Notes under the pieces: model-generated
Databases searched by the model: none
What the model was told of the DNA's origin: nothing
What the model saw: the letters and a program-made list of their open reading frames with translations, nothing else
Shown here: positions 8,922 to 50,016 of the stretch, one piece after another
Position numbering within the stretch: position 1 is the stretch's first letter
Layout of the letters: each line of letters opens with the position of its first letter
Made by a program: the position numbers and the translations under genes
Virus record (IMG/VR): IMGVR_UViG_3300006750_000004
Span: 1-64,000 of that record
Origin: a virus
DNA length: 64,000 bases
Reading direction: 5' to 3' (one strand)

Positions 8922-10727
8922 ATGAAATTGGCAAAGATTATAACCCTAGATGACCCGTACTACCTCCAATTGCGACGGTTGTTGGATGGAGCACGGCCAA
9001 TGGTTGTAGAACACACAATTCTCAAACTCAAAAACGGCACTGGCCGAGCTTATCAAGAGCCACAGCCAATACCCTATATATTCATCGAATCCGTGCTTGA
9101 TAGCAATGTGATGAGTGAGGGCGGTCTTGGGGAATTGTTTAAAACAGGGGTTGCTAAACTCAAAGCCGCCCTAACACCAGGGCCTAGTGGGGACCTAGAA
9201 ACATTACTGACGTTTATGGCTCCCAGCAGTGGTGGTCTCCAACAAATCAACCAATTAATCCAACAGGCCAGTAAAGCCGAAGGATCTCTCCTAGACCCCG
9301 CCAATAGCGCTTGGTGGGAAGAACTCTATGGTGCATTTGGGGTAAACGATCAAGAGACTAAGACCGCCGTCCAACAACAAGTCCAGCAAGATCTCTTAAA
9401 TCCTCAACCTGAAGAGCAACCTGAAGAGCAAGCAGATCCCACGGGTCAAGAAGGAACTAACACTGGTGCCGGAGGTGGTAAACAAGCCGCAGTCCAACAT
9501 CGATTACAAATGCTCATAAAGAGGATGCAAGAATTAAAGGCCAAAGCTCAACCCGAACCAGCTCAACCCGAACCAGCTCAACCCGAACCAGCTCAACCCG
9601 AACCAGCTCAACCCGTCGCAAAAGAACTGACCAAGAAGGAAATTCATGACCATATTGCTCGTCTTCGAAAACTGAACCGAGAGGGAAACCTAAGTCAAGA
9701 AGGACAGGAAACCCTCACTCAACTCATCAATCAGCGCAACGCGCCAGCCGACGACGAAGAGCACTTGAACAAGAAGCAAATAATTATGCCTGGAGATACT
9801 CAGCACAGTATGCCGGAAAACCGGATTGTTGCTGAATTGGCTCTCTCACTTTTAACTGAACGATGTGTCAGAAATAATATTGGTATTATTGCGAACTTGA
9901 TGCTCCGGAAAATTGGCTCACCCCAATCTGTGAGGATGCCACTTATCAGTGAAGCCGGTCTAGTCAGTAAACTGAAAGACGCCATCGGCGGTATTCCCAA
10001 TAAATTATCAAGAATGGCAAATACTGCCACAGATATGGTGTCGAATCCGCAATATGCCCAACAGCAACTTGCTGCTTCTGGTGCTAGTAGTAATAATGAA
10101 CGTGCTGCTAAACAAGCAGTGCGGATTTTGACGGATAACTTGAGAGGCCAATTCGAATCTAAGTTGTCTGCAAATGGTCTGACTCCCGACCAAATTCAGA
10201 CTACTTTAGCATCATGGCAGAAATTGAGGCCACAGGCTGAACGTGGCGAAGAAAAAGCTTTGCAACAATACAACATTGCTGCCGAAACCTTGAAGAAAGC
10301 ATTCAAACTCTTCAATGTGGCTGATGGGTCAGAACCCGATGACTACAGCAGCGTCACTGGTGGTTTCGAATCATTGGAACCAGTCGGTGCGCCAGGGAGT
10401 GGTACCCAAATCAGTGGTGTCCAACCAGCTAAATATGGATTCGAGGAACAGGGGATTCCTGCAACATATCTCACTGGAGGTATGACCATGGAACAAACAG
10501 CTCAATTACAAGCCATATTAGCCCACGATCGGTTGGATGTAAATCAATCTTTAATCGTTTGGCGATTAATTACTGGTCGATCACCTGACATGGATAAATT
10601 CCGAGCTGCAATACAAAAAACTGGTAATTCTATACCAAAACCAAAACTCATCAAAGCAGCCAAAAATACTGCAGACAAGATTAGAGCAGCCAACTACGAT
10701 CGTGATAATCCTGTGACCGGATTTTGA
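8922..10727 (+). CDS. Large protein with PEPAQ repeats, possibly structural
   Basis: 601 residues. The N-terminal 'MKLAKIITLDD' is followed by a mixed region, a Gln/Glu-rich segment (about 150-200), four tandem PEPAQ pentapeptides (about 210-230), a charged helix and a long helical C-terminal half rich in Ala and Gln. No catalytic motif is seen. The proline repeat looks like a flexible spacer between two domains. Genes of this kind are common in virion or scaffold modules of large phages, but no family was recognised. It opens a plus-strand run that continues through the membrane proteins and NucS. Confidence 0.6.
   Translation: MKLAKIITLDDPYYLQLRRLLDGARPMVVEHTILKLKNGTGRAYQEPQPIPYIFIESVLDSNVMSEGGLGELFKTGVAKLKAALTPGPSGDLETLLTFMAPSSGGLQQINQLIQQASKAEGSLLDPANSAWWEELYGAFGVNDQETKTAVQQQVQQDLLNPQPEEQPEEQADPTGQEGTNTGAGGGKQAAVQHRLQMLIKRMQELKAKAQPEPAQPEPAQPEPAQPEPAQPVAKELTKKEIHDHIARLRKLNREGNLSQEGQETLTQLINQRNAPADDEEHLNKKQIIMPGDTQHSMPENRIVAELALSLLTERCVRNNIGIIANLMLRKIGSPQSVRMPLISEAGLVSKLKDAIGGIPNKLSRMANTATDMVSNPQYAQQQLAASGASSNNERAAKQAVRILTDNLRGQFESKLSANGLTPDQIQTTLASWQKLRPQAERGEEKALQQYNIAAETLKKAFKLFNVADGSEPDDYSSVTGGFESLEPVGAPGSGTQISGVQPAKYGFEEQGIPATYLTGGMTMEQTAQLQAILAHDRLDVNQSLIVWRLITGRSPDMDKFRAAIQKTGNSIPKPKLIKAAKNTADKIRAANYDRDNPVTGF
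9546..9615 (+). repeat. 15-bp tandem repeat encoding PEPAQ
   Basis: The unit GCTCAACCCGAACCA occurs four times in a row followed by ten bases of a fifth copy. It is in frame and encodes the PEPAQ spacer. Exact identity between copies suggests recent expansion or ongoing slippage. Confidence 0.95.
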
Positions 10728-10813
10728 TGCTTGGTGATCATGTGTCATGAGTGGATCGAGAAGCAACGCCGATTCGCACTAGGGTGTATACGGACCGGTA
10801 TAGAGAGGAACCA

Positions 10814-11068: not shown

Positions 11069-11087
11069 CTCGATTAGGTGGGCAGCT

Positions 11088-11546
11088 ATGGATAGTCGCC
11101 ATACACAGGTGGGCCGTATGGCAATCAAAGACCCTAGCCATCCTCTCTGGTCCATCACACGACTAGTCATCTATATGGGAGCGTTGACCTTCCTCCTTTG
11201 GCTCAACGCATCCAACTTCGACGTCACAGAACTGCGGACAATCGTCCTAATGTTCCTAGCTGGCGGAATTGCTGCGGGCATCGGACAAATTATCAATGTT
11301 GTCCGGAAGAAAGAGAAAGCCCCAACAGACCCAATCCACCCATTGTGGGGCATGATCCGCCTCGCCATCTTGGGCACCCTCTGTTTCATTCTCTGGTTGA
11401 ACGCCTCTCACTTCGACAAGACTGAAGATAAGACTATTATGTGGATGTTCGTAGTCGGTGCAGGATCTGAGGGTCTTGGACAGCTTCTCAGTAAGCTCCA
11501 AGTGACCGTTCTACCTAGCGGTCCGGAAGTGACAGATGACCCGTAG
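11088..11546 (+). CDS. Four-helix membrane protein made of two repeats
   Basis: 152 residues. Two homologous halves each contain 'HPLW', a membrane segment ending 'LWLNAS(N/H)FD', and a second hydrophobic helix ending in a Gly-Leu/Ile-Gly-Gln type turn. The protein thus looks like an internally duplicated two-helix unit. Two ATGs (11088 and 11118) each have an AGGTGG site at good distance, so two start forms are possible. Function unknown; it lies between the holin-like gene and NucS. Confidence 0.6.
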   Translation: MDSRHTQVGRMAIKDPSHPLWSITRLVIYMGALTFLLWLNASNFDVTELRTIVLMFLAGGIAAGIGQIINVVRKKEKAPTDPIHPLWGMIRLAILGTLCFILWLNASHFDKTEDKTIMWMFVVGAGSEGLGQLLSKLQVTVLPSGPEVTDDP

Positions 11547-11554
11547 ATACGGGC

Positions 11555-12187
11555 ATGCTTTCCTCGTTTTCTCTTTACTTCCGTGGGTCCGTCAGATATG
11601 AAGGTCGGGCCTTGGGCCTCCTTGGGCCTGGAGACTTTCTTCTGCTAAGGAAGAACGACGGAAGCGTATCCATCCATGGCGGTACCGGAATAGGTGCCAG
11701 GAATTACATGGGTGCCGGTACCAAGATGCAGGGTGCTATCACCCCTGGTGAAGGCATACTCTCGTTCTTACGTAAGGGTGAGACCATCGAAGTGAAGATG
11801 GATGAAATCCACTTCATGGAGCAAATGTTGGACTGGTCAGAGGATGAAGTAAAACTCAGGAAGACAGAGAAGGAATTAGTCCAGAAAATCTTCTGGAACT
11901 GGCCGGACTACGTGGATGTCCAGTGTGAGATAATAGAAATGGAGTACCACACCGATGTGGGTCCATTCGATCTGATTGGGTTCGCCACCCACGATATCCA
12001 CATCATAGAAGTAAAGAGACGTAAAGCCTCTATCCCTGATGTCACTCAGCTTAAGAGGTACGTGGACTACATGCGGAAGCGGTCCACAGTCTATGGGTAC
12101 CTCGCTTCTCCAGAGATAGGCACTAAAGCTCTGGAGTATCTCGAAGAGCACGGGTTCCACTGGCTGTATGTGGACTTTGATATCTAG
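11555..12187 (+). CDS. nucS: NucS/EndoMS-like mismatch endonuclease
   Basis: 210 residues with the two-domain plan of archaeal/actinobacterial NucS. The N-terminal beta-domain (about 1-85) contains 'GRALGLLGPGDFLLLRKNDGSVSIH'-type strands. The C-terminal PD-(D/E)xK nuclease domain has Asp139 in 'GPFDLIGF', then Glu152 and Lys154 in 'IIEVKRR', followed by 'VTQLKRYVDYMRK'. NucS cuts both strands at mismatches (EndoMS) or acts on flapped DNA. Slightly shorter than cellular NucS (about 220-250), lacking the C-terminal PCNA/clamp motif as far as I can see. A replication or repair role for the phage is inferred. Confidence 0.85.
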   Translation: MLSSFSLYFRGSVRYEGRALGLLGPGDFLLLRKNDGSVSIHGGTGIGARNYMGAGTKMQGAITPGEGILSFLRKGETIEVKMDEIHFMEQMLDWSEDEVKLRKTEKELVQKIFWNWPDYVDVQCEIIEMEYHTDVGPFDLIGFATHDIHIIEVKRRKASIPDVTQLKRYVDYMRKRSTVYGYLASPEIGTKALEYLEEHGFHWLYVDFDI

Positions 12188-12227: not shown

Positions 12228-12497
12228 CTAGGCACCCGCCACATCGTCAACCGGATCGGTAGTATACCATTCATTTGGACTGATTCCGGGTAATCTAATG
12301 AATGATTGCTGCCCAGCTTTGGACCCTCGAGAGCGGCCTGACCCGAGGGATAGGTGCTTTTGCTCTGATCCGGCGATCAACCCCAGTGCTTCGGTGGGTG
12401 TAACTCGTGTCTTATCTGTCTCTTTGTTCGGTGGGACTTGTACGAAGTCGTTGATTACTTGAAAATCGCGGTGGATTTTAATATCTTGGAATGACAT
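12228..12497 (-). CDS. Small hypothetical protein downstream of the giant gene
   Basis: 89 residues, mostly polar, with a Gly/Ser/Arg-rich middle ('SLGSGRSRGSKAGQQS') and no recognised family. It starts 10 bases after the stop of the 2330-residue protein and is probably in its operon. Perhaps a virion accessory protein, judged only by position. Confidence 0.5.
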   Translation of the reverse strand: MSFQDIKIHRDFQVINDFVQVPPNKETDKTRVTPTEALGLIAGSEQKHLSLGSGRSRGSKAGQQSFIRLPGISPNEWYTTDPVDDVAGA

Positions 12498-12507
12498 AAT
12501 GACCTCT

Positions 12508-15500
12508 CTACGTGAAGCTGGCTTCTGGCCAGGTGAATCGTGCTGGGAGAATTTCTCTGTGCTGGCTGATATGGTTCAGGACTCTGGATCGTCCCTTAAG
12601 AGAATCTAAATTGTTCTCGATAAGGACGAAACTTAATTTGGTCTCAATTGTTCTTGACCAAGTTGTCTCTTCCAGGGTGCCAGTGTTGAAATTCCTTTCG
12701 TACGGTGTATATTCGCCGACATTAATTCCCTTGACTAAAGCAAGATCTCGCAGAGTTAGTCGTTTACCATTGACCATTCTGTTTGGATCGAATAGATCTC
12801 GTTCGATCTGTAGTCGACGTGATACATTAGCCTCGCTGGTGATCGTCTCATTGTCACAACAATCTACTTCAAGGACTGGTTCATCACTATCACCCGGACG
12901 ACATAGTAATGGCCCAGATTGGCAAGAGAGATCGCTGAGATCATCACACCCAGGTACTGGGTATGGGTACGGCCCAGGATCAATTGGTGGTAAGATCAAT
13001 GGATTGCAGAGTAATGTTTCCTGGAAATCCGCCACCAACAATGGGATGTCTCCAAAGATCCTCTGGAACACAATGATATAGGACGTATTGATTGGGTCTG
13101 GAGGAAGCCCTAATGGGTACTCGTCGACTACCGAAATCTGACCCGGTGTGTTGAAGAATACTAATTGTAAGAGTTGGGCTTCGAGACCTTCCGCTGTGGT
13201 GTTCCACGGGATAGCAGTAGTAGTATCAGTCACACCATCAAGAGTCAGTGATAATTTGAATGATCCACCAGTAGCTCTGATGATTTGCAATCTTTGGCGT
13301 TCGTTGGAACCAGATCCATTGGTTACCTCAAGGATTTCGATTGGGGCTCCGGTTAGTTGTGACCCACTTGGGTCTGTCTGCATTTGTGGGATATCAGTTC
13401 TGGTGAAGGAACCAGTCCAGAACACATTCCATTGATATTCATCTACGGGGGAGCCAGACACTTTCGTGACCGCTATATCCGTTGTAGCCAGCCATGATGC
13501 GGCAGCTACAATTGCTGCTTCTACTTGTGTGGCGGACGCGTTGAATGGGATGGCTCCTGTATCAGCAAAAGCATTCCCGCCCTCGAGATTACTTGGGTCT
13601 GCAACTATTGTTTGCCAGTTCTTACTACCATCAGTTCCAGCAAATGTGATTGTGTATGTGACATTGGAGGGCAGTGTGCCAGATGAAGTGACAGTGACTT
13701 CTGATAAGTTCACCAGTGCGTTCAACGCATTTTGCACGCTGGTGGCTGAGGCGTTGAATGGAATATCGGCGGTTCTTTCACCTTCGACGATGAGTGCAAA
13801 TGTTCCAGCAACAGGGGAGCCAGTGAGTGTTACTGTCTGAACTTCATTAACGGCCCCTGTCAATTGCTGAGCAGCAACGGAGATATCTCCAACTGTAACT
13901 GCTGATGCTAGCTCTAAGTAAGTTTTGATAGCAGCCGAACTGTCGGTGCCCGTGACCAAATTGCTAGGTGCGACTGTATCCAGAATATCGACAAATACAG
14001 CATCACTTGGAGTAGTTAGTCCAAATGGGGTACCGAAACCAGTAACGGGGCCATTCCATTGGAAGCAATGGCGTTGGATTTCTGGATCCGTACCGCCTTG
14101 TCTAATATTTTGTAGTGTGTGGGTGAAGGTATCTGGCACACCGGGGAAGAAGGTGTTGTTGTCGATATTGGTGCTGCCAAGAGTACCACTAAATGTGATG
14201 TCATAACAATCTGTGTCGCTAATTCCACCTTCTGTGGTTGTATCAACTTCGATTCCGGGTGCTGTCCCGCCAACGTCGAATACCCGTAGGACAAACGTGC
14301 CCCCAGATGCTTGGACCGTGATGAGTTGATTCTCATCAATGCCACCAGCTGGTGGGGCTCCGCCCATCCAATCTTGCGTGACGGTGTATAATGATGACGG
14401 GCTTACCGTTGCCAGTTCGACATTTTGACCGCCGAATGATCCGATGAATTTAATTCTTAGTGGCCCAGTATATGCGTCATCTCTGCCAGTGGTGTCACCT
14501 GTGACTGAGATATTACCAGCACCAATGCTAGTAAGACCTTCAAGAGCTGATTGAGCTTCATTTAAGGTCCTATTGAATGCGAGAGGTGTGGTGGTCTGCC
14601 CACCGAATGAGATTAACAAATCAGCAAGGACTGTGTCATTGTTTCTAGAAATTGTTTGTTGTTCGTTGATTGTACCATTAGTGACAGTGGTAACAAACGC
14701 AGTTGCAGACCCAGTGAAGTTGTCTCCATTGCCGACTAAGATATTGTGGTCTCTAGCACCAAGGGTACCAACGAACGTGATTAAGAATGGGTTGGCAGTC
14801 GTGCCTGACCCAGTCACCCCCACGTTAGCTTTATCACCAATATTGGCCAAGCTTGCTAATCGATTTCGGACTTGCTCGGCACTAGCATTCCATGGAATAT
14901 TGGTGGTTGTCTCGACTGTACCAAAATCGAAGGTTAATGTCCATGTGCCGCCGGATGGGGATGGCAGAACGACCGATTGGACTTCGTTGACTGCTGATCC
15001 TGGTGACAGGTCGGTGATTAAAATTTCTGCTAAGCATGAATCAGTAAAGACACCTCTATTATTCTCAAATGCGAATTCTGGGAAAGTGAGGATACCTTCT
15101 CCAACCGCAGTGAAGAACAGGGCTGTGGTACACTGATCAAGACCACGCCCATCAACATCATCTAGAACAAATTCGAAACTCTCCCATCGTGCCGATGATC
15201 CTTTGAGGCCGTTATCTAGTGCTGAAACAGTGTCCCATGGTAGTCCAAGAGTAAAGTCATCACTCTGTTGCCAAACATCATTTTTATCGATTCGTTGTGT
15301 AAATTCACGTTGTAGACTCTTACTGTTCTTATAGCGGATTGAGATTGTGAGTTCTGAAGCAGGGTCAGGTTCACACGTAAATGGTCCTGGATTTTCTGGC
15401 GATGAATCAGCACCACTAGGGAGGACATGATTAGCTAGAAGAAAAACTTCAACATTTTCAATCAATCCAGCAGGTGGATCTTGGAACGCAATTGATAAGA

Positions 15501-18500
15501 CGTCTTGGACTCCTGATGACGTCGAAGCAGATGGGATATCCCAAATCCAGTTAGTTCTAGTTGCTACGCTTGCGAAATCACCTTTAGCAATTGAGTCGGC
15601 AAGAGATGGTGTTAGTCCAAATCCAAGGACACCTGATTGTGGTGTGCCACCTTGTCCTTGTTGTTTCCACATATCACATGAGGAAACTCCTAATACACCC
15701 TCGTCTGTAGCAATGTGTGTAGAAGTGGAAACGCTGAATGGGTCATCTGGGTCTCGGATAGTGTACCGAACGATAGCATTAAACAGGTTGGTTGGTTTAC
15801 GTGGAATCCCATCCCATTCGACCAGGACTTCTAGATCAGTAATGCTACCATCACATGGTGGTGCGTCTTGAGCACACACCAAAATATCATCTAAGTTGGC
15901 GTCGAAGATCGCCAAGTTCTTGATCAAAATCGTGACTTTATCATCTTGTACGATCGATGAAAACGTCTTGATTCCAGGTGTGCCATCAGTAGTGAATTGG
16001 TCAATAATATCGCCAGAATGAAACTCGATTTTGAATGTTCCGATACCGTCTGGGCTATTGAGAACATTGAAGCTGAGTTGGGCTGTAATACCTGGTTCTA
16101 GTGCTGTAAAAGTCTGGCTAAGAGTATCGTCTCCATTGGTTGCTTCTAATGTTACCAACTGGTCGACTGCGTCATGTGTCCCACCAGCCCAGGCACCTCT
16201 ATTTTCTGAAAAATCGTCAAATGACAATTTTTCGAATCCTGGGTCACAATCCCCAGATGTGTCACATAATAGGATATTACGAATTTTGGCAACGCCGCTG
16301 GTTATACCGCTTTTAAAGGAGACTGTCACTTCACCATCGGCCGGTGCGACGAAGTCTAACTGTAGTCTTTCTGGTGGGCTAGTATCGGCTGCGGTGACTG
16401 ATGATGTGGCGATCACCGCTCCGGTGCTGCTATAGATCGTATAGATCAATTCAATTGTGGTAATCACAGCTGGTTCAAGCGATGTTAACTCGAAGTTTAG
16501 GCTATAATTATTACCAGGCTTTAAATCTATGAGTGTGGTTCTTACTTCTGGTTCACCAGTAAGACTGACGATGATAGCATTTAGAAGGCTGTCCCATACA
16601 TCCTCATCATCGGTGGGTGTGATTGGTATATCGGCTGCATCATCCCAAAATTGAACTCCGGTTTCGAAATTCGGGTTCGAAATTAAGTTGCGTGTACCAG
16701 GACCGCAATCATCTTCTTTCAGAATGCACAATAGAACGTTGTCGACATAGAATGGTGAATCCTCGCCAGTTTCAGCATCGAAGAATACCTCTATTTCGCC
16801 ATCGAGCCCAATGGTGGTGAACAGGTCAAATCGTTGTGAATTGTCTTGGCCTGGCGGTTGTAGTTCAGCTTCTGTGACTGTGCCTGACGCTAGTGTGGAC
16901 CCAGATCCGTTGCGGAGTTTGTAGTTGAGGATGCTTTCGACTGGCGGGATGTCGTCGCCAATACATAACGAAGTTGCGAAAATTCCGGCTGTTGCCATTT
17001 CTTCTGGGTCAGCAATTAATCGGACGCATGCCGAAATTTGCTCGCTGATCGGCACGGTAGCAATTACTGAGAAAGTACCGCTTCCATTTATCGTTTCTGC
17101 CAGGATTAATGGGCCATCTAATAGTTGGATAGCTACTTGTCCTAGGGAAACGGTGTCTACATTAACTAATAGTTGGACGTCATCACCTGGGGTCAGATCT
17201 GTGAATGTCTTGTATGCCGACATTGAATTGGCGGACATCCTGGCAATACCGGTGAAGTTGGCGGTGAAATCGGGGAACAATTGATTTCTATTGTCACCAT
17301 CTAGTTCGTAGGTAAAGACAGTATTTTTCCCACTGTCTGCTAAGCAAATACGGCCAGCTGCTGTGTCTACTATCAGATCGTCACCGGTAGCAGTGGTTCC
17401 AATAACTGAGTAATTACTACCGTCCAAATCCATTTGGATTAATTCACCAGTTGTTGAGGCGTAAAGTTTTCCACTGTTGTAGTCGATGCCTATTCCACGA
17501 ACATTGGCTATTGTTGGTTGTGTGGATTCGTCTACAATGATTACGATGTTGGAGCCATCTAGATTGGATCGATATACTGTGCCATCAGTAGATGAGTTGG
17601 ATCCAGTCCAATAAACATGATCATTCTCTATATCTAACGTAATTCGCACAACCCTCTTTGGGCTGTTTGCTATGACTGTACTACCAGATCCATCGAAGTT
17701 GATTCTGAGAATTTGTGGTGTGATGGAGGTACCGTAGTAAATGTGTTGGTTCACTACGTCTAATCGGATGCCTAGTGATTCGTCAATATCTGCAATCTTG
17801 GCTTTGTTAGATCCATCAATGTTGACTCTGTAAATTGCGTCTTCAGTTCCCGCGAATTGGCTGATCTCCATCCAATAGATGTGTTTGTTAATAACATCAA
17901 CGTCGATGTCTCTGGCATTACCGGATCCTGTCACTACATCAGCTAAATTGGATCCATCAAGATCCGATGTCTTGATCTTATCACCTGCAGTCATAAACAA
18001 TTTGTCGGTGAAACTACCAGATCCCCCAGTTTCATTAGAGCTAATTAATTTCAAAGTACTTGTGGATATCTCAACCCCACTACCGGCCCATCCTTGTAGA
18101 GAAGTATTTCCTTCGCTCCAATCATCTGCGTCCACTAGAGACCATCCAGATGGGCAGGAAGGGGCTGCTTGTGGGGCGATAGCGGCTGCAGCGGCGGCGG
18201 CTGCTGGGGTTGTGTCTACATGGACACTAAATCCTAAAATGGCTAAGTCACCGGGTGTGAGACCAGAAATTGTCTGGCCTGCTGCACCATTTGTCTGCAA
18301 AGCCTGAAACCCGCTATTCCATGATGTGCTGCGGCCACTAACAGTGCTAAGATCCGTCCAATTGGCGATGCTCGTTTCGAATTTGCCGTTGAGAATTTTG
18401 TCTTCGCCGCCAGGACATTCTGGCGTTTGTGATGATTCACACACGCTTAGGATGAAACTAGTCATCAGTGCGAGGATATTATTCCCGGCTTGTGCGTGTA

Positions 18501-19500
18501 CCCAAAACCCATTAGTTCTTGTGGTTAGATCGTTGAACCATTCTATTTGTTTAGAGCCAAGAAGATGACTGGTCCATATGATGGCCAATCTGACGCCGCA
18601 TCGGTTCATTTCGTCAGCGGCGGTTCTTGCTGCTTCTATGTCGATTGGTGCTTCATCTGTGATAATAAATAGGATTCTAGCGTCGCTATCTTCGCGGTAT
18701 GTCCATTCATTGAACCAGTTGTATGCAATTGATGTGAGAGCTTGGTCCCATGGTTCGTAACCGCCATCAAGATCCATTTGGGCTGCGGCGGCTTGAAATG
18801 CTACTAGGTTTTGGCATGGCTGATTTGTTAAGTCGAGCCTAGTAATTACCCCTCCCCTATTTTCAGCTTGTCCGAATGTTTGCAGTGCGAATCGGTAACT
18901 TCCATTGGATACGGTAGTAATTAGGTTCGCCATTGCGGCGATGCCTGTTTGGACCTTGGTGATAGATTGCCCCATACTCCCACTATTATCGATGGAGAAG
19001 ACCGCGTCGATGTTACAATCGCTTTTGGGGCAATTGGCTGGGTTGATTATTGGTGCATTATTACCCGAGATCATGGCACAATTATCTGCTTGTGGACTAG
19101 CAAATCCGCTTAGTGGTACAACTTCTGGATCATTAATGATCATTTTGTTGAAGTCGACACTAGCTTTGGCCATTCCTAACCCGACCACTTTTTCTTGGTA
19201 TGCTTGGGCTCCTTCGCTTGTGATGGCATATTTGGCGGCGGCGATTTGGGCATCTAGGGTTTGTTGGGTTATTGCTTGGAATACTCCTGGTTTTCGCATT
19301 TCTGGGAGTTCGACGGGTGATTTACCATATGCAAGTATCCTCAGGGCCGTTCCAACGTCTGGGTTGGGGCCACTGGTAGCTCGGGTAATTACTTCTCGAG
19401 CCCAGATGAGTTCAGCGAATGTTGGTTGCCCGATTTCTACGAATTCACCACAAATGGGTCGTTTGATGTCTTCGTACGGGTCTTGTAACGTACCTGTCAT
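12508..19500 (-). CDS. Giant vWA / YWTD-propeller / beta-repeat adhesin-like protein
   Basis: 2330 residues. About residues 160-350 form a von Willebrand factor A domain with an intact MIDAS start 'DNSGSMGQS'. About 505-755 is a bladed region with repeated 'IYRVNIDGSN', 'IYYG', 'VYWTGSN' and 'LDGSN' units, like YWTD/LDL-receptor propellers. Several jelly-roll-like modules with 'LTPGD' and 'FYVDNVLLC' segments flank it. About 1500-2165 holds five or so 90-110-residue repeats with 'NExQxVxL', 'IPxNASAxxV' and 'ITFxGxxG'. No signal peptide or membrane anchor. Most likely a virion fibre or surface adhesin; the C-terminal part is Cys-rich (CCDN). Confidence 0.85.
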   Translation of the reverse strand: MTGTLQDPYEDIKRPICGEFVEIGQPTFAELIWAREVITRATSGPNPDVGTALRILAYGKSPVELPEMRKPGVFQAITQQTLDAQIAAAKYAITSEGAQAYQEKVVGLGMAKASVDFNKMIINDPEVVPLSGFASPQADNCAMISGNNAPIINPANCPKSDCNIDAVFSIDNSGSMGQSITKVQTGIAAMANLITTVSNGSYRFALQTFGQAENRGGVITRLDLTNQPCQNLVAFQAAAAQMDLDGGYEPWDQALTSIAYNWFNEWTYREDSDARILFIITDEAPIDIEAARTAADEMNRCGVRLAIIWTSHLLGSKQIEWFNDLTTRTNGFWVHAQAGNNILALMTSFILSVCESSQTPECPGGEDKILNGKFETSIANWTDLSTVSGRSTSWNSGFQALQTNGAAGQTISGLTPGDLAILGFSVHVDTTPAAAAAAAAIAPQAAPSCPSGWSLVDADDWSEGNTSLQGWAGSGVEISTSTLKLISSNETGGSGSFTDKLFMTAGDKIKTSDLDGSNLADVVTGSGNARDIDVDVINKHIYWMEISQFAGTEDAIYRVNIDGSNKAKIADIDESLGIRLDVVNQHIYYGTSITPQILRINFDGSGSTVIANSPKRVVRITLDIENDHVYWTGSNSSTDGTVYRSNLDGSNIVIIVDESTQPTIANVRGIGIDYNSGKLYASTTGELIQMDLDGSNYSVIGTTATGDDLIVDTAAGRICLADSGKNTVFTYELDGDNRNQLFPDFTANFTGIARMSANSMSAYKTFTDLTPGDDVQLLVNVDTVSLGQVAIQLLDGPLILAETINGSGTFSVIATVPISEQISACVRLIADPEEMATAGIFATSLCIGDDIPPVESILNYKLRNGSGSTLASGTVTEAELQPPGQDNSQRFDLFTTIGLDGEIEVFFDAETGEDSPFYVDNVLLCILKEDDCGPGTRNLISNPNFETGVQFWDDAADIPITPTDDEDVWDSLLNAIIVSLTGEPEVRTTLIDLKPGNNYSLNFELTSLEPAVITTIELIYTIYSSTGAVIATSSVTAADTSPPERLQLDFVAPADGEVTVSFKSGITSGVAKIRNILLCDTSGDCDPGFEKLSFDDFSENRGAWAGGTHDAVDQLVTLEATNGDDTLSQTFTALEPGITAQLSFNVLNSPDGIGTFKIEFHSGDIIDQFTTDGTPGIKTFSSIVQDDKVTILIKNLAIFDANLDDILVCAQDAPPCDGSITDLEVLVEWDGIPRKPTNLFNAIVRYTIRDPDDPFSVSTSTHIATDEGVLGVSSCDMWKQQGQGGTPQSGVLGFGLTPSLADSIAKGDFASVATRTNWIWDIPSASTSSGVQDVLSIAFQDPPAGLIENVEVFLLANHVLPSGADSSPENPGPFTCEPDPASELTISIRYKNSKSLQREFTQRIDKNDVWQQSDDFTLGLPWDTVSALDNGLKGSSARWESFEFVLDDVDGRGLDQCTTALFFTAVGEGILTFPEFAFENNRGVFTDSCLAEILITDLSPGSAVNEVQSVVLPSPSGGTWTLTFDFGTVETTTNIPWNASAEQVRNRLASLANIGDKANVGVTGSGTTANPFLITFVGTLGARDHNILVGNGDNFTGSATAFVTTVTNGTINEQQTISRNNDTVLADLLISFGGQTTTPLAFNRTLNEAQSALEGLTSIGAGNISVTGDTTGRDDAYTGPLRIKFIGSFGGQNVELATVSPSSLYTVTQDWMGGAPPAGGIDENQLITVQASGGTFVLRVFDVGGTAPGIEVDTTTEGGISDTDCYDITFSGTLGSTNIDNNTFFPGVPDTFTHTLQNIRQGGTDPEIQRHCFQWNGPVTGFGTPFGLTTPSDAVFVDILDTVAPSNLVTGTDSSAAIKTYLELASAVTVGDISVAAQQLTGAVNEVQTVTLTGSPVAGTFALIVEGERTADIPFNASATSVQNALNALVNLSEVTVTSSGTLPSNVTYTITFAGTDGSKNWQTIVADPSNLEGGNAFADTGAIPFNASATQVEAAIVAAASWLATTDIAVTKVSGSPVDEYQWNVFWTGSFTRTDIPQMQTDPSGSQLTGAPIEILEVTNGSGSNERQRLQIIRATGGSFKLSLTLDGVTDTTTAIPWNTTAEGLEAQLLQLVFFNTPGQISVVDEYPLGLPPDPINTSYIIVFQRIFGDIPLLVADFQETLLCNPLILPPIDPGPYPYPVPGCDDLSDLSCQSGPLLCRPGDSDEPVLEVDCCDNETITSEANVSRRLQIERDLFDPNRMVNGKRLTLRDLALVKGINVGEYTPYERNFNTGTLEETTWSRTIETKLSFVLIENNLDSLKGRSRVLNHISQHREILPARFTWPEASFT

Positions 19501-35260: not shown

Positions 35261-36430
35261 TTAATCCAGGAAGCAAACATGGTTGTTTTGTGGACCGGTT
35301 CCAACAATTGTGACTGGAATACCAGCAATATCTTCAACCATATGTATGAAATCCGTCACCTTTTTAGGTAGTGCACCATATTCGTTGGTGCCATAGCACG
35401 ACCAATCAATATAATTGGCGAAATTCAGAGCTATTTTGTTAGCTCCGTTGACGAGAGCAGCTTCTTTGAGCTGTTTCTTCGAGAACGTGAATACACGTCG
35501 TAATCTCTTGGTAACGGTGGTTAGTTCGCCTTTCATCACTTCTGGCGGGGCGTTTGCCTCTCGTGCTATGTTCTCCCACGATGTTTCTTCGTGGTCGTCG
35601 TAGTGGCCACCAGAGTGTCCAACCGTCTTACCGTCTTCGATGACATTGCCGACACGGATTGGTGCGGGTCTGATTACTAAATAGACGTCACCCATAGCAG
35701 TATGTGGTAAGCCCATGTCCGCCAAGTTCTGAATGGCGGTAGTACCCCGACTAGTGCATTGTGGGTAATGTGAGCCATGATTAATGTCGAGAGAGAACCC
35801 TTGGGCTCCTTCATGTAGGATAGTAACCCCGAAACGTTCCATAAGGACCATCAGCGTTTGTGGCAGGCTCATTCCTTGAACGTAATCAGAAATTTCTGGG
35901 TCGACATTATCAATCTTCTTGCCTATAGCCGATGGCATGTAACCAGATAGGGCATCATAATCTCGAGCAAGTTTAAGTTCCCTCTTACGCATGATTTTAT
36001 CTGCGAGAAAGGACCCACAACCCTGCATTGTGCTGGCTAGGTGTTTAGTACCAGTGGTTAGGTTGCCTTCGGCTTCCTTGTGGGCGTCTGTAATAACTCC
36101 AGCTCGTTCGTGGATTGTGAGTTGATAGCTGGATTCGGTTTCCTGGATCTCTTTATGCATCTGCTCAATGGTGAATGCTGCACTACACCCCACGACGATG
36201 TGTGGATCATATTCTTTGATCCACTTGCGAAGAATAGCTGCAGAGGGAAGAGCTTTTGCTACAAATTCGTCTTTGCCGTTTTCGTGAACGGCGGTATGGC
36301 CCGCATTAGCCATATTCGTAGTTGAGATGATTCCGGGGCGATAACGTGATGCTATGGCGGTACAAATAAGACCTTTGCCGCAACTACCCCAAGATCCGTC
36401 AGTTACTACATTAAATCGCCGGTCTTGCAT
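35261..36430 (-). CDS. PurZ-like adenylosuccinate synthetase homologue
   Basis: 389 residues. The protein is related to PurA along its length, but the P-loop region reads 'GSWGSCGKG' where PurA has GDEGKG, so the catalytic Asp is replaced by Ser16. It also has 'NMANAGHT' (His45). Both features are those of PurZ, which uses dGMP and aspartate to start 2-aminoadenine (Z base) synthesis in S-2L-type phages. GGAGA precedes the ATG by six bases. DatZ, MazZ and a Z-type polymerase are not in this window, so the Z-genome inference is open. Confidence 0.8.
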   Translation of the reverse strand: MQDRRFNVVTDGSWGSCGKGLICTAIASRYRPGIISTTNMANAGHTAVHENGKDEFVAKALPSAAILRKWIKEYDPHIVVGCSAAFTIEQMHKEIQETESSYQLTIHERAGVITDAHKEAEGNLTTGTKHLASTMQGCGSFLADKIMRKRELKLARDYDALSGYMPSAIGKKIDNVDPEISDYVQGMSLPQTLMVLMERFGVTILHEGAQGFSLDINHGSHYPQCTSRGTTAIQNLADMGLPHTAMGDVYLVIRPAPIRVGNVIEDGKTVGHSGGHYDDHEETSWENIAREANAPPEVMKGELTTVTKRLRRVFTFSKKQLKEAALVNGANKIALNFANYIDWSCYGTNEYGALPKKVTDFIHMVEDIAGIPVTIVGTGPQNNHVCFLD

Positions 36431-37232: not shown

Positions 37233-37932
37233 TTTCGTTCCCCAGCAATCGCCTTAATTCTTCAGGCTGTTGTTGGAGTTCTTTCACCACATTTTTGGCC
37301 TGCAGAAGATTTACAGCGAAGCGGGCCGCGTCATTGCAAGACGTAATAGTCCTGACGTTATTTATATTGCCACTTAGTTTTATTGGCACCTTAACAATGC
37401 TACGGATTGTTTCCATAATTTTATTATGGATATCAGGATTGGCCTTACTAACCTGAAGTTTCAGTTGAATATCAGTCCTGACATAAGCTGGCGTCCTGAC
37501 ATCCAACAATGCTTCACACAACGCTTTAATATTATCATCATCACGGCCATTAACTCCTAGCACAAAACGGACTTCTAAGGATTCGGCGAGATGAGTCTTG
37601 ATGAATTCTGTGAGTGCTTTAGCTTCGTTGCGGGAATCTATTTTATTCTTTCCGCCAGTCAGTAAGATTTCGAAGCCATCTGCATCTAGGGCATCTGTGG
37701 ATAGCCCACGCAGTTTGTTCTGACCGAAAATTTCCCCTTTAGGCCAATCAATAGGTGTGATTAAAAAATATCGTCCACCCGCCCTACCGCGATAGATCTG
37801 GGCTTCGGATGCTAGATCTGGGTGCACCACTAGTGCTGGTATTTTGTGTTTTGCGGCAAGTTCTGACGCTTCTGCAAGTTCGTTGGCTTGCATGACGTCG
37901 ATTTCAAGTCGATTGAGGATTGCTCCGCCCAT
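37216..37932 (-). CDS. DeoC-like aldolase
   Basis: 238 residues from the ATG at 37932; the open frame continues upstream but over the deoxyribosyltransferase-like gene. The final third 'VPIKLSGNINNVRTI...DAARFAVNLLQAKNV' fits the last strands of deoxyribose-phosphate-aldolase-type barrels, where the Lys forms the Schiff base. 'VRFVLGV' and 'RTDIQLKLQ' fit inner strands. Its neighbours are a deoxyribosyltransferase-like gene and, further on, the PurZ-like gene, so deoxyribonucleotide turnover is a reasonable guess. Confidence 0.5.
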   Translation of the reverse strand: MGGAILNRLEIDVMQANELAEASELAAKHKIPALVVHPDLASEAQIYRGRAGGRYFLITPIDWPKGEIFGQNKLRGLSTDALDADGFEILLTGGKNKIDSRNEAKALTEFIKTHLAESLEVRFVLGVNGRDDDNIKALCEALLDVRTPAYVRTDIQLKLQVSKANPDIHNKIMETIRSIVKVPIKLSGNINNVRTITSCNDAARFAVNLLQAKNVVKELQQQPEELRRLLGNENDTTQ

Positions 37933-38338
37933 ATTTAGTATCCAAGTAATCAAGAGTAAATTGAACGGCTTTATCCTCGTCCCTAAATCGGGAAACAATT
38001 GGCCGATTCTGGACTTCTGGTAAGAAATAGAATGTTTTCTTCTCCCCCATGGTGTCTTGTTCTGTAAGCAAGACGATCTTGACACCAAAAGCTCTGGCTA
38101 AACCCAGTTCACAATGTGAACCTTTACGAGCCGGGAACACCATAAAGAATACATCGGCGTTCTTAACACCAGTTTCTTCTGCGAGTCCATACTCTGCCAA
38201 TTCTTCATCGCTATATACTTGTCCGTGTGTGGTCCAATCATAAGTTATCTCACATCCAGCTTTTTTGAACCTGGCTTGGAGTTCGTTTGCTCTTTTAGCA
38301 TTTTGTAGGCTTGTGCCTATATAGATTCTACCACGCAT
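37904..38338 (-). CDS. Nucleoside 2-deoxyribosyltransferase-like protein
   Basis: 144 residues. 'IYIGTSLQNAKRANELQARFKKAGCEITYDWT' is the family start, 'NADVFFMVFPARKGSHCELGLARAFG' carries the nucleophile-type Glu and the conserved Gly-x-x-x-Glu-x-Gly segment. Family members exchange or hydrolyse the base of deoxynucleosides or deoxynucleotides. It could support the altered purine supply suggested by the PurZ-like protein; that link is inference. Confidence 0.7.
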   Translation of the reverse strand: MRGRIYIGTSLQNAKRANELQARFKKAGCEITYDWTTHGQVYSDEELAEYGLAEETGVKNADVFFMVFPARKGSHCELGLARAFGVKIVLLTEQDTMGEKKTFYFLPEVQNRPIVSRFRDEDKAVQFTLDYLDTKYGRSNPQST

Positions 38339-43192: not shown

Positions 43193-45019
43193 CTACACCA
43201 CTTCGGTAATCTGAGAAAACCGATTGGTCCGAGTGACCCGAAGTTCCTTAGGGAATGTATCATACATCAAGTTCCGGTGAGAGATAATTAGAATTGTCTT
43301 CACCTTGGGAGCCAGATCATTCTTGATGATGTTGATGAGCGAGTCAATGCCGTCATCATCAAGACGGCCATCCACCTCGTCCAGCACTAACATATTGCAC
43401 TGACGACCATACATTTGTTCATGAAAATCGAACATTGCCAACATAAACGCGACATCCGTTCTTTTTCTCTCACCGCCTGATTCGAATTCATATCCCCACA
43501 AATTACTGGTAATACCCAACGCGGGCGTCAATTCAATCTGGACATCAAGCCCGAACACGTCCAGATAATGACGTAGTCGACTATTGATAAATGGAACATG
43601 TTCCTGGAATACAAAACTCTTGATCTTAGTTCGATCATTGTATGCTTTATAAATATAAGCATAATGCCGATTCAAGAAGGTCTCTTGTTCAATGTCCTTC
43701 TCTAGTTTAGTGATATCCTCACCATGCTCCTCTACGGATTTCTTGGTTTCGGCAATAGTAACAGTATGTGGGTTCTTTTCTTTCTGGATTTTAGCGGCGT
43801 CGGCCTTAAATCGGGCCATGGCTTTATCGTGGCGTTCCCACGATGAATGGGTGTCCTTGGCGGCCCGTATGGTTGTCTTGGGCTTTTTATCAGCCAATTG
43901 ACCTTCAGCCAATTTAATGGTTTGGTGGGTTTTAGTGAGATCTTCCTGGTGCTTTGCGAGTTTGGTCTTCTCTTCCACCAATAATTTCTTAATCGGATCA
44001 ATCTTAGAGGCTGTGTGGGCTGTTGGTACTTCCTGTTCGCAGGCATTACATATCTTCCCTGCTTTAGCCCCCCAGGTTTTGATCTTCTTACTTAGTGATT
44101 CAACAGTTCCTTCAATAGTAGCAATTAGACGGGTTGTGACATTGAGTTTGGTCCGAAGTGAGCCGACGTATTCTTCGACTTTTTTAACCACGTCCCATTT
44201 GGCTTGTAATTTTTCCAGGTTTGGTCGCTCGATGGCGTCTCGTCTCTTTTTCTCGTCTATAGCGGTCTGGAGTGATTCAGTGACTCGACGGTCACGGTCT
44301 TTACCATAATTCTCGGATGCGGCGGTTAGACGTTCTATCTCTTGGTTGAGCCGCACGATATTTTGGTTGAGCGTATTAATCTGACCACGTTTAGTGTCGA
44401 TACTACTATCAAGTTGACCACACTTACCTTTAGCATTCTTGGCGTAATAGGCGAACCGGTCTACATGAAGCACTCTTTCAATCGCTTTTTTACGTGTTGA
44501 ATCAGCCATCTCCATCCACGGTTTACCGTATTGGTTGAAGAATATGGATCCACAGAATACTTCCCAATCCAGATTGAATTCTCGATTGAGCTGTTTTTGT
44601 TGATTCTTCTGAGTGGATAAAGTCTCACTCGTCAAAGTGATCTCATTGCCGTCTTTAACGAAGTGTAACTCATTGTGGCCGCCAGATTTTCTAGTCCTGG
44701 TTATAAAGTCGCCGTTGGTGAATTCTAGACGTGCTACACAGTCTTTACCGGTGAAATAATTGACTATTTTATCACCAGGACTGCTAGAGTGCATGGTCCG
44801 ACCAAAAAGGACCCATTGAATAGCATTAACTACCGTAGACTTTCCGGCACCATTGGATTTGGTGATTTGTAGATTGGCACTATTATCGTATAGTGACTTA
44901 TCACCATCCACCACCTCTCCGGTAATGAGGCATTGGCCTAGTTCGTCCAGGTTTAGTACCGTCTCGTAATCGCCATACGACATGAAATTCTGCCAGGCGA
45001 CTGTCTTCAGCTCAAGCAT
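43193..45019 (-). CDS. 46: T4 gp46/SbcC-like recombination nuclease ATPase subunit
   Basis: 608 residues, SMC/Rad50 type. Walker A 'SNGAGKST' is at about residues 53-60, then two long coiled-coil arms flank a zinc hook 'CNAC' near 325. The ABC signature 'FESGGERKRTDVAFML' and Walker B 'MLVLDEVDG' follow near 515-550, with 'IISHR' after it. Together with the gp47-type nuclease (48919-50016) it resects double-strand ends for recombination-dependent replication. The length fits phage gp46 (about 560-610). Confidence 0.95.
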   Translation of the reverse strand: MLELKTVAWQNFMSYGDYETVLNLDELGQCLITGEVVDGDKSLYDNSANLQITKSNGAGKSTVVNAIQWVLFGRTMHSSSPGDKIVNYFTGKDCVARLEFTNGDFITRTRKSGGHNELHFVKDGNEITLTSETLSTQKNQQKQLNREFNLDWEVFCGSIFFNQYGKPWMEMADSTRKKAIERVLHVDRFAYYAKNAKGKCGQLDSSIDTKRGQINTLNQNIVRLNQEIERLTAASENYGKDRDRRVTESLQTAIDEKKRRDAIERPNLEKLQAKWDVVKKVEEYVGSLRTKLNVTTRLIATIEGTVESLSKKIKTWGAKAGKICNACEQEVPTAHTASKIDPIKKLLVEEKTKLAKHQEDLTKTHQTIKLAEGQLADKKPKTTIRAAKDTHSSWERHDKAMARFKADAAKIQKEKNPHTVTIAETKKSVEEHGEDITKLEKDIEQETFLNRHYAYIYKAYNDRTKIKSFVFQEHVPFINSRLRHYLDVFGLDVQIELTPALGITSNLWGYEFESGGERKRTDVAFMLAMFDFHEQMYGRQCNMLVLDEVDGRLDDDGIDSLINIIKNDLAPKVKTILIISHRNLMYDTFPKELRVTRTNRFSQITEVV

Positions 45020-45730: not shown

Positions 45731-47551
45731 TCATTTGTTCTGGATAGCTTCCAAGAACCAATCTGGTAACATATTCTTCGCAACCTTGAGGAAACGATCG
45801 ATTGCTTCATCAAGAATAAAAGTGTCCGCGTAATCGTCGACACTACGGACACTACGGCCATAGGATTGAACCAATTTGAGAGCAGTTAGCCACTCATAAT
45901 ACTTTCGGTCGATCTCTACTCGCCGGGCCAATTGCTCATTATCAAAACAATTTGGATAAGGCACCTTACAGATAATCTGAAACCGGCTCAAATCACCAAC
46001 TAAATCAATCCCCTCATGCATCGCCGGAGCAATCAACACATTGCCCGGAGTTCTAGCATGATAGATCAACATGTCAGCCTTATCCCTGAAACTACGCTGA
46101 TGACAAAGTCGAGCTCTGGTAGTTGCATGACATTTGGTCAGAATATTGTCCATAATAGCGAAATTGTGAGTGTGAATAATACCCTTATCATTTGGATATT
46201 CAGCCACGATCTCATCTACACGACGCACCACCTTAGGCATCCACCCACCCATTTTCGCCTTGCCGCCAGTCATTTTGGCGACACGATCCAAATAAATTGG
46301 GCGATTCTTAGCTGGGAACCGGTTTTTCATTCGGAACGCAGCCACATCTTTCCGATCGATACCAAGCGATCGACACATCACACCAACATCCAACACCGTA
46401 GCACTCAACATCAGAATCTTATCTGCATATTGAAATAAGAGATCCTCTGGAAAATTCATCGCATACACCGGGCGTAATGTCACAGTCCGATGTGCCACAC
46501 CGCCCTTACCATCTGCCTTCTCCTCATATTCACAAACCCATTCAGCACCAGTTTTAGTGACATGGTTCATAAACATCTCATATTTCTTCAAAGTCCTAGA
46601 CAGTTCATCCACGACCTTGTTCTTTTCATCCACTTGAGCCTGTTTGATGATCTGGATTAGAGTCTGTTCAATCTTGGCGTCGCTGAAGAATAGAGCATAC
46701 GCATCAGCAGTCTCCAACTCCGGAATAAAAATCCCGTGATCCTGTAATTGCATATCGTTGATTGTCAACGAAACAAAATCCAACAAAATAGGCTCGACAT
46801 TATGACACTCGTCGATCACCATCAAATTACGCGGCGTGTTGAATCGTGGCGTGAGACTGGTCTGGAACAAGAAACTCGAAAAATTCATCACACATTTGCG
46901 GCCGTAGATCGCCTTAAAAACCTGCTCGTAATACGGACACGTGCTATAATCGTATCCTGGCGGCAGATGATCTAATTCACCAGGTGGAACAATAACTCGA
47001 GGAGGTGGTGCTGCCGAATCTTTATGTGCTTCAAAGCATTTATTGCATTTGTGTTTACGGATTTTCTTCTTACCTGGCTCCTGATTCCATTTGGTGCGAC
47101 AGAACCCATCTGCACAAGTACCATGATCCTTTTTGAAATTAGTAAGGTCTGATTGACTCCAAAGTTTTTTGTTGATATAATTCTGACCATACCTGTCCCA
47201 GAAAGTGCACGAATAAGCATTCCGGCCTTTCAACTCTACAATAGGATCATGATAGCCGGAATCCTCGCCAAAATCGCCTGTTAGCTGATCCTGCAGGATT
47301 TTAGTAATAGTGAGATAGTATGAATCCTTCACCATATCTGCGAGAGTCATGGCAACAGGCGACTTACCGCTGCCTGTGGGTGCCTCGATGATGACGATCT
47401 TTTTGCCGCTATTAAATGCGTTGGCGGCATATTCAATAGCGGATTTCTGTCCTTCCCGATATTCTTCCATCGGGAAATGATCGTCTATAGCATCCACATC
47501 GAAATGGACAGAGGGACGGAGCATTGGCTCCGTAGCGGTATCAATTGCCAT
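45731..47551 (-). CDS. DinG/XPD-family ATP-dependent DNA helicase
   Basis: 606 residues, superfamily 2. Walker A 'APTGSGKS' is near residue 55, a Cys-rich insertion (about 115-215, e.g. 'HKCNKCF' and 'STCPYYE') fits the iron-sulfur domain of the DinG/XPD group, and motif II is 'VIDECHN' (DECH). 'LIAPAMHEGIDLVGD' and 'LVQSYGRSVRSVDDYADTFILD' are motifs V and VI. Such helicases unwind 5'-3' with an Fe-S cluster. It is next to the gp46/gp47 block, consistent with a recombination or replication role. Confidence 0.88.
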   Translation of the reverse strand: MAIDTATEPMLRPSVHFDVDAIDDHFPMEEYREGQKSAIEYAANAFNSGKKIVIIEAPTGSGKSPVAMTLADMVKDSYYLTITKILQDQLTGDFGEDSGYHDPIVELKGRNAYSCTFWDRYGQNYINKKLWSQSDLTNFKKDHGTCADGFCRTKWNQEPGKKKIRKHKCNKCFEAHKDSAAPPPRVIVPPGELDHLPPGYDYSTCPYYEQVFKAIYGRKCVMNFSSFLFQTSLTPRFNTPRNLMVIDECHNVEPILLDFVSLTINDMQLQDHGIFIPELETADAYALFFSDAKIEQTLIQIIKQAQVDEKNKVVDELSRTLKKYEMFMNHVTKTGAEWVCEYEEKADGKGGVAHRTVTLRPVYAMNFPEDLLFQYADKILMLSATVLDVGVMCRSLGIDRKDVAAFRMKNRFPAKNRPIYLDRVAKMTGGKAKMGGWMPKVVRRVDEIVAEYPNDKGIIHTHNFAIMDNILTKCHATTRARLCHQRSFRDKADMLIYHARTPGNVLIAPAMHEGIDLVGDLSRFQIICKVPYPNCFDNEQLARRVEIDRKYYEWLTALKLVQSYGRSVRSVDDYADTFILDEAIDRFLKVAKNMLPDWFLEAIQNK

Positions 47552-48918: not shown

Positions 48919-50016
48919 ATGTCAAAAGTTGCAATTACCGCCGATGTTCATTTTGGCGTCACAGACAAGTTAATGGATACCCTATGGGCATGCAGAGTAA
49001 TGCGAGAATATTGTCAAGCAGCCAATATTGACACCGTACTCGTTCTCGGAGATCTCTACCACGATCGTACGTCAATCGGAATTGACGTACTCTCACATGT
49101 TGCAAAATTCTTCGAAGATACAAAAGAGAAATACAACCAAACCTGGATTGCCTTCCCAGGTAACCACGACATGTTCTTAAGACATTCGTGGGGTGTCAAT
49201 AGTCTGGACATCATGCGGCGGCACATGACTGTTATTGATGATGTTAAATTATTAACACTGGATGACCGCCGATTCTGGGTTCTACCCTTCATTACTTATG
49301 AGAAATCATTTATGAAGGTGCTTTATGAAATTGAAAAACAAGTGGAAGACGGGGATTGTCTTCTAACCCATATCGGGGTTAAAGGAGCATTGTATAATAC
49401 ATGTTTTCTACTCCAGGATTGGTCCGTCGTTAATTTCGAACGTACCCCATTCAAACGGATTTATACCGGGCACTTCCACAGCAAACAACAAATTGGAGAG
49501 AATTGTTGGTATCCAGGATCACCAATTCCCTTTAAATTCGACGAGGGAGATGTTGCTCATGGATTTTATGTATATGATCTAGAGGCGGATTCCCATAAAT
49601 TCATCAACATTTGGAAAGCTGGTGCTAAATTCTTCCCAGATGAGGTAGCACCACCTCAATTTCACACATTCTTAGATGAACTTCTGGAAGAAAAAACTGC
49701 GGCCGATGTGTCCAATAATATGATTCGCGTTGGTCTCCAGCGAGAATACACTATAGACGAGAAGCATAGTATACGTAAGTCGTTAATGGATAAGGGGGCC
49801 AGAGTCGTCCGCTGGTGGGATCTAATCACGAAAAAGGAAGAGAAATCCCAAATTACTAAGGGTATCGATTCATCTCAACACAACAGTCTATTTAATGCAT
49901 TCTTATCAGCAGACACCAAAGGAACGAAAGAGTTGAATCATGAGATACTTCTCAAAAGGCACTCAGAAGTGATCAACGAGGGTGATCACGAGTATACTAT
50001 AGAGGAATCAGAATAA
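48919..50016 (+). CDS. 47: T4 gp47/SbcD-like Mre11-type nuclease
   Basis: 365 residues, calcineurin-like phosphoesterase. The metal motifs are intact: 'ITADVHFG' at 6-13, 'VLGDLYHDR' near 43-51, 'GNHDMF' near 77-82, 'LLTHIGV' and 'YTGHFHSKQQ'. It partners gp46 as the double-strand-end nuclease. The gene is on the other strand from gp46, 3.9 kb away, unlike T4, where 46 and 47 are adjacent. Confidence 0.95.
   Translation: MSKVAITADVHFGVTDKLMDTLWACRVMREYCQAANIDTVLVLGDLYHDRTSIGIDVLSHVAKFFEDTKEKYNQTWIAFPGNHDMFLRHSWGVNSLDIMRRHMTVIDDVKLLTLDDRRFWVLPFITYEKSFMKVLYEIEKQVEDGDCLLTHIGVKGALYNTCFLLQDWSVVNFERTPFKRIYTGHFHSKQQIGENCWYPGSPIPFKFDEGDVAHGFYVYDLEADSHKFINIWKAGAKFFPDEVAPPQFHTFLDELLEEKTAADVSNNMIRVGLQREYTIDEKHSIRKSLMDKGARVVRWWDLITKKEEKSQITKGIDSSQHNSLFNAFLSADTKGTKELNHEILLKRHSEVINEGDHEYTIEESE

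Follow-up and report, generated by a model that had tools for sequence, protein, structure and literature searches.

The nucS gene and the phage lineage that carries it

The window, a 64,000-nucleotide stretch that forms part of a 95,725-base IMG/VR record (IMGVR_UViG_3300006750_000004), contains an open reading frame for a 210-residue protein just where a preliminary description of this DNA had placed a NucS/EndoMS mismatch endonuclease (Table 1); it is the only NucS copy in the record. Pfam recognizes both domains of the family in this single protein, NucS_N (E = 6.4e-07) followed by NucS_C (E = 7.7e-16), each above its curated cut-off, and the NCBIfam endonuclease NucS model matches with E = 2.4e-35, a score under that model's own cut-off. 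The sole sequence relatives of solved structure are EndoMS (5gke, E = 1.9e-18) and NucS (2vld, E = 7.3e-17), matched over residues 6-203. A profile of the viral copies aligns with one of cellular NucS over 204 columns (E = 2.1e-61, with HGTV-1, the halovirus discussed below, included in the cellular profile and thus present in both), and chance is ruled out as the source of the match.

An AlphaFold2 model built from 40 aligned sequences (mean pLDDT 94.3, pTM 0.66) finds DNA-bound EndoMS (5gke) as its top solved structure, with a Z score of 18.8 over 208 residues at an rmsd of 4.4, and Foldseek gives E = 1.1e-17 between the model and EndoMS; among the matches listed for BFVD, none is a full-length NucS. 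In the structure comparison, non-NucS nucleases match the C-terminal domain only, with Z scores of 12.3 and below. The candidate identity of a restriction-type or generic PD-(D/E)XK nuclease is rejected because restriction nucleases match that domain alone, while the window protein has the N-terminal domain and matches the EndoMS fold along its whole length. As the family models, the solved relatives and the predicted fold all point the same way, the reading frame is confirmed, at the level of sequence and modelled structure, as a complete two-domain NucS/EndoMS.

Table 1. Features of the window discussed in the text.
Feature	Position	Strand	Remarks
601-aa protein, NucS flank, function unassigned	8922..10727	+	kept in close relatives
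nucS, 210-aa NucS/EndoMS endonuclease	11555..12187	+	ATG start; Pfam, NCBIfam, PDB sequence, predicted fold
NucS_N (mismatch-binding, dimerisation) domain, residues 11-88	11585..11818	+	Pfam; pocket Y15, R18, N50, Y51
NucS_C (PD-(D/E)XK nuclease) domain, residues 110-206	11882..12172	+	Pfam; D139, E152, K154, Q165, Y169
89-aa protein, other NucS flank	12228..12497	-	
2330-aa large repeat protein, other NucS flank	12508..19500	-	same sublineage
PurZ-type synthetase, predicted first step to 2-aminoadenine	35261..36430	-	GSCGKG replaces GDEGKG; PHROG 1211
Nucleoside 2-deoxyribosyltransferase (NDT)-like protein, 144 aa, PurZ block	37904..38338	-	Pfam 3.7e-4, under cut-off
SbcC-like (T4 gp46-type) recombination nuclease subunit	43193..45019	-	adjoins NucS in other members
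DNA helicase	45731..47551	-	PHROG 2488; 'UvsW-like' by analogy
Calcineurin-like phosphoesterase, probable SbcD (gp47) partner	48919..50016	+	

The gene had been described as a phage's own, and its genomic setting bears this out. Two IMG/VR relatives, whose NucS proteins are 62% and 50% identical to the window's, are syntenic with the window over most of its length, and the larger of them, at 408 kb, carries major head, portal, terminase, contractile sheath, baseplate and ribonucleotide reductase genes together with more than 20 tRNA genes. From these structural genes and tRNAs the lineage is recognized as one of giant tailed phages with a contractile tail, and relatives of its terminase and capsid are scattered across phages of many hosts. 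The window's record encodes SbcC, a helicase, UvsX, DnaB and a DnaE-type polymerase, as well as a 5'-3' exonuclease, a uracil-DNA glycosylase and a divergent PolA-family protein; MutS was found in none of the 24 lineage records searched.

Several of these genes have peculiarities of their own. The DnaE-type polymerase gene, which lies outside the window (own record 68062-76417; L003:5063-13418), is split into several ORFs, and a 512-residue HNH/homing endonuclease ORF sits in another frame inside the portion that in G001 is a single 978-residue ORF; Rfam matches neither the surroundings of the split gene nor any part of the window. A free-standing HNH endonuclease gene occupies window positions 1962-2669 on the plus strand (PHROG 374, 5.4e-60), and the uracil-DNA glycosylase superfamily protein (1.2e-28) is encoded outside the window (own record 79876-80652; L004:377-1153). 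In G002, two adjacent tRNA genes with TCA anticodons, called as tRNA-SeC, lie at L115:7439-7650 with two tRNA-Trp genes beyond them, and recoding of TGA in that phage is possible.

The surroundings of nucS differ between members. In the window's sublineage (the window, G001-G003, G005, G006 and G017) the gene lies between the large repeat protein and the 601-residue protein or one of 130 residues, in most cases also beside the 89-residue protein, and it is encoded in opposite directions in different members; these flank proteins perhaps serve a virion function and are not repair genes. Directly upstream of nucS, window positions 10751-11546 (plus strand) encode two small proteins with apparent membrane spans, judged by eye, the second of which has no match in G001 or G002. 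In two other sublineages nucS adjoins SbcC: it follows SbcC at about 1 kb, between it and the NDT-like/PurZ block (G009, G010, G015 and G016), or directly follows SbcD-SbcC on the same strand (G050). In G012 and G014 it lies among other genes. The gene has thus relocated between genomic homes yet stayed intact. One relative, G004, keeps both the NucS flanks and the PurZ-SbcC block and has no NucS, so at least this phage can do without the enzyme, unless the gene lies in a part missing from the G004 genome.

Viral NucS: spread, phylogeny and conserved residues

NucS is present in 17 viral records, HGTV-1 not counted. A search of 50 records, the window's and 49 others that have a PurZ relative, gave 13 of these, the window's included, and a NucS scan added four (L187, L189, L193 and L196). 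The scans rely on short peptide patterns, so all viral NucS counts are lower bounds. Ten of the other viral copies were compared with Pfam; every one matches both domains and nine do so above both cut-offs, the L174 protein falling 0.7 bits under the cut-off for NucS_N. One copy, in G005 (L186:10001-10531), is truncated by a stop beyond which homology continues to residue 208, making it a candidate for a decaying gene or a sequencing error.

Other searches returned little. Archaeal and actinobacterial NucS alignments retrieved as viral matches only HGTV-1 and two lineage members, the single window protein retrieved nothing, and the matches of NucS queries in phage records were limited to HGTV-1, a virus lacking PurZ, and three short faecal contigs. 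The latter, deposited as 'Bacteriophage sp.' (MT836018.1, MT838864.1 and MT839036.1), score 61-74% to actinobacterial NucS. Of these, MT836018.1 was examined: glgE and glgB genes are present on it, and its origin is very likely bacterial; the other two are taken for bacterial too.

In a tree of phage and cellular copies, a comparison that the preliminary description had proposed, 14 non-redundant phage rows (three near-copies being left out) form one clade within NucS (support 100/100) that sits on a long stem, outside the sampled archaeal, actinobacterial and Deinococcus-group proteins; the tree contains NucS rows only, so by itself it is no test against restriction nucleases. HGTV-1 joins this clade with support of 95/79, which is not firm. 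The 80 cellular proteins were kept from 99 loci confirmed in a single scan limited by its search pattern, and they lack, for example, the copies of Thermus and Thermotoga, in whose genomes the control list detected the family; within these 80, the highest identity to any phage NucS is 36%, and identity between viral copies goes down to 31%. The enzyme family is known, but the phage proteins make up a genuine and new viral branch of it, in a setting that was not expected.

How does this branch relate to viral proteins already on record? The halovirus protein HGTV-1 gp43 is a full-length NucS homologue, 29% identical and likewise without a tail; it differs in keeping the pocket Trp and in coming from a virus with an archaeal host, a family-B polymerase and no PurZ. 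Since GenBank labels it a 'RecB-like nuclease', a viral NucS copy has already been deposited, but not named as NucS. A NucS-like catalytic domain also occurs in the Marnaviridae, according to the account in PMC11796362, there as a C-terminal domain without its N-terminal partner, fused to the RNA polymerase of an RNA virus. Passages in PMC5290159 and PMC8228993 state that NucS is absent from viruses, a statement that an intact, tail-less clade in giant phages contradicts. In the open-licence literature, no paper on a full NucS in phages or viruses was found, nor anything on these points for HGTV-1 or for PurZ together with DnaE.

The phage proteins share with cellular NucS/EndoMS of T. kodakarensis, P. 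abyssi and mycobacteria the domain order, the fold, the D-E-K triad with its Gln and Tyr, and the Tyr/Arg/Asn of the pocket. D139, E152, K154, Q165, Y169, Y15 and N50 are invariant in the alignment of 17 viral and 80 cellular proteins, and R18 is found in all 17 viral and 79 of the 80 cellular ones. Asp139, Glu152 and Lys154, which had been singled out from the window sequence as kept, stand at those positions and align with D165, E179 and K181 of T. kodakarensis EndoMS; the roles of these family residues are described in PMC7343888 and PMC11551767. According to a simulation paper (PMC6829318), the flipped base in EndoMS is stacked upon by Tyr41 and Trp77, the counterparts of Y15 and Y51, while its O6 (in G) or O4 (in T) is held by Asn76, the counterpart of N50, and by the Trp77 main chain. 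The position of the pocket Trp77 is taken by Tyr in 16 viral copies and by Cys in the remaining one. A phage-specific shift in base reading was considered and rejected, as 15 of the 80 cellular proteins, all archaeal rows, share the Tyr. A Trp at position 94 does set the viral proteins apart (17/17, against 0/80 cellular).

The clearest departure is at the C-terminus. The window protein stops at the end of its domain and has no C-terminal clamp-binding motif, a functional feature of the studied NucS proteins that is not used here to define the family. Past the column of residue 207, 16 of the 17 viral proteins have at most 10 residues, against at least 15 in 78 of the 80 cellular ones (shorter in two), which settles in the affirmative the earlier impression that the tail was missing. 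The sole viral exception is the G050 protein (L187:9983-10813), with a C-terminal extension of 71 residues. In M. smegmatis NucS the last five residues are predicted to bind the beta clamp, and their deletion fails to complement (PMC11551767); cellular NucS is reported to require the clamp tail in vivo (PMC11551767, PMC8228993). The beta-clamp C-terminal domain was found in none of the 24 lineage records, and neither PCNA nor the beta-clamp middle domain was found in the window's own record. Given neither tail nor recognizable beta clamp or PCNA, the phage NucS might work differently from its cellular relatives.

A PurZ-type synthetase and its association with NucS

The window also encodes a synthetase whose top model is NCBIfam PurZ. 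It scores 200 bits against a cut-off of 300, and is therefore named PurZ-type rather than PurZ. In this protein Ser replaces the catalytic Asp of the GDEGKG loop, and Ser at this position marks PurZ (PMC12884076). GSCGKG or GSTGKG occurs in 18 of 18 lineage rows and GDEGKG in 8 of 8 PurA rows (seen again on 14 lineage and eight PurA rows), a contrast that is partly by construction, as the scan for PurZ records was baited with WGSCGKG or FNVVTDG. In the PurZ tree, 15 lineage rows form their own clade (100/99), split from PurA (100/99) and apart from PurZ0 (100/98), that sides with the phiVC8-like PurZ group without falling inside it. PurZ-type genes lie also at G001 75579-76826 and G002 141838-143001. 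G002 encodes another adenylosuccinate-synthetase-like protein besides (L012; G002 258590-259711, minus strand), which is very divergent and has GDGGKG.

Further genes bear on the predicted modification. The NDT-like protein of the PurZ block is present in G004 and G022 as well; in PurZ0 phages an NDT-like gene likewise lies nearby, and DmtZ, of the NDT family, makes dZMP there (PMC12884076). A 446-residue protein with a partial PolA-family match (PF00476, 7.6e-12) is encoded outside the window (own record 89169-90509; L004:9670-11010) and kept in G001 and G002. It is a candidate for a Z-selecting polymerase; as it has no match in 50,697 phage records, the name DpoZ is not applicable. DatZ was found in none of 21 records. 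Going by these genes, it is a good inference that phages of the lineage contain Z (2-aminoadenine).

With the Z-genome phages described in PMC12884076 (phiVC8, SH-Ab 15497, Ghobes and Wayne) the lineage shares the PurZ-type synthetase and its Asp-to-Ser change. It differs from known Z phages in its separate PurZ clade, in its DnaE-type and divergent PolA-family polymerases, in that DatZ was not found, and in the presence of NucS. It differs also in size: PurZ phages among the matches listed have genomes of about 39-83 kb (one 735-kb metagenomic record excepted, whose PurZ is 24% identical), whereas this lineage reaches up to 408 kb or more. Its synthetases make a further PurZ-type clade, in giant phages with a DnaE-type polymerase, and Z-genomes of 100-400 kb or more are possible there.

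A PurZ-type gene is on the same contig in 14 of the 17 viral NucS records, and the other three are fragments of 140.5, 47.9 and 6.7 kb. Viewed from the other side, NucS is found in 13 of the 21 records (20 from the PurZ scan plus the window's) in which PurZ shares 47% identity or more with that of the window, and in none of the remaining 29, so that a role of NucS as a general companion of PurZ is rejected. The eight NucS-less records among the 21 all measure 36-177 kb, and four of them were read: in G004 both flanks are present and NucS is not, G008 has the neighbouring clusters without NucS, G011, read over 100,000 of its 100,283 bases, yielded PurZ alone, and the G022 record breaks off within PurZ. 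Because all 14 records with both genes belong to one lineage, they represent one evolutionary association, long kept: it reaches PurZ proteins only 47% identical to the window's and NucS pairs only 31% identical. PurZ matches 202 phage records, the weakest of which may be PurA-like. Neither gene requires the other, given PurZ phages without NucS and HGTV-1 with NucS and no PurZ.

Possible roles of the phage enzyme

On the best reading, the phage NucS is probably a working, clamp-independent mismatch nuclease that guards the phage's own large genome. It would probably cut mispaired bases in virus DNA for repair, and the genomic context, with SbcC or SbcD-SbcC beside nucS in some members and a Holliday junction resolvase gene beside it in HGTV-1, favours such a role. 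Counting against it are the missing tail and clamp, the Tyr or Cys in place of the base-stacking Trp, the non-repair flanks and changing orientation of nucS in the window's sublineage, and G004, which has the flanks and no NucS. The N-terminal domains of a NucS dimer would flip out both bases of a mispair (G-T, G-G or T-T), and the C-terminal domains would then cut both strands at it, without a clamp tether, during replication of the phage genome. The cut ends could be trimmed by the phage 5'-3' exonuclease or by SbcCD, and the gap refilled by the PolA or DnaE polymerases, or recombined with UvsX, from the many genome copies in the cell. In M. smegmatis a 5'-3' exonuclease acts on the cut made by NucS, and repair there does not depend on homologous recombination (PMC11551767), so the neighbourhood of SbcC is no proof of a recombination route. 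Copying a large genome demands few errors, and this may be why giant members carry NucS and 40-kb PurZ phages do not. Whether NucS mismatch repair can proceed without a sliding clamp becomes a testable question, as does the manner in which 2-aminoadenine phages handle their characteristic mispair; the protein could also serve as a small, mesophilic, clamp-independent mismatch cutter for removing errors from synthetic DNA.

Could the predicted genome modification be the real reason for keeping NucS? Deamination of 2-aminoadenine at C6 gives guanine. Opposite T this would leave a G-T mismatch, which damaged-base glycosylases would not see but which NucS prefers as its target. A polymerase choosing its substrate by the 2-amino group would also have less means to reject dGTP opposite T. 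The near-constant company of a PurZ-type gene in the NucS records, the place of that gene on the PurZ side of the tree, apart from PurA, the NDT-like gene in its block, resembling DmtZ of PurZ0 phages (PMC12884076), and the reported preference of NucS for G-T (PMC8228993, PMC11551767) are consistent with this idea. However, the association is confined to a single lineage, where the two genes may simply have been inherited together; small PurZ phages manage without NucS, HGTV-1 has NucS without PurZ, G004 has PurZ without NucS, and the search of 21 records found no DatZ. A guard of the Z-genome is thus a tentative proposal, and equally speculative is its extension, in which the clamp-free NucS would belong to the Z system as base-modification-specific repair, handling Z-to-G changes beside a uracil-DNA glycosylase that handles C-to-U. 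The preliminary description had also raised discrimination of modified DNA: a link to modification stands insofar as a PurZ-type gene accompanies NucS, but sparing or attacking a modified genome is unsupported, as the pocket residues that read G and T are kept.

NucS might instead act on flaps, forks or other branched structures, either ahead of packaging or while replication proceeds by recombination, and leave mismatches alone. The SbcC, SbcD and helicase genes near it in some members would suit such work, as would the Holliday junction resolvase gene that adjoins the NucS homologue of HGTV-1, with RadA and PolB genes near, and P. abyssi NucS was first reported with activity on branched DNA (PMC8228993). 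A branch cutter would have no need of the mismatch-pocket residues, however, and these are kept, which makes this role unlikely.

The mismatch-repair reading also fares well against a destructive role, in which the nuclease would degrade the chromosome of its host, an option raised in the preliminary description, or attack rival DNA in the form of heteroduplexes from co-infecting relatives. The PD-(D/E)XK fold has its active site intact, loss of the tail would free the enzyme from replication forks, and the lone NucS-like nuclease domain of marnaviruses has been proposed to target host DNA (PMC11796362). Yet NucS is reported not to bind properly paired DNA (PMC8228993), so bulk host DNA would be a poor substrate, and the mismatch domain is kept in all 17 copies; such a role is accordingly quite improbable. 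Least credible of all, and rejected by the tree, is a recently captured host gene with no role in the phage: its GC content (0.496, against 0.453 for the window) and its several genomic homes could point that way, but the viral clade is old (100/100, long stem), no cellular copy in the set of 80 exceeds 36% identity, and the active site is conserved although identity between viral copies falls to 31%.
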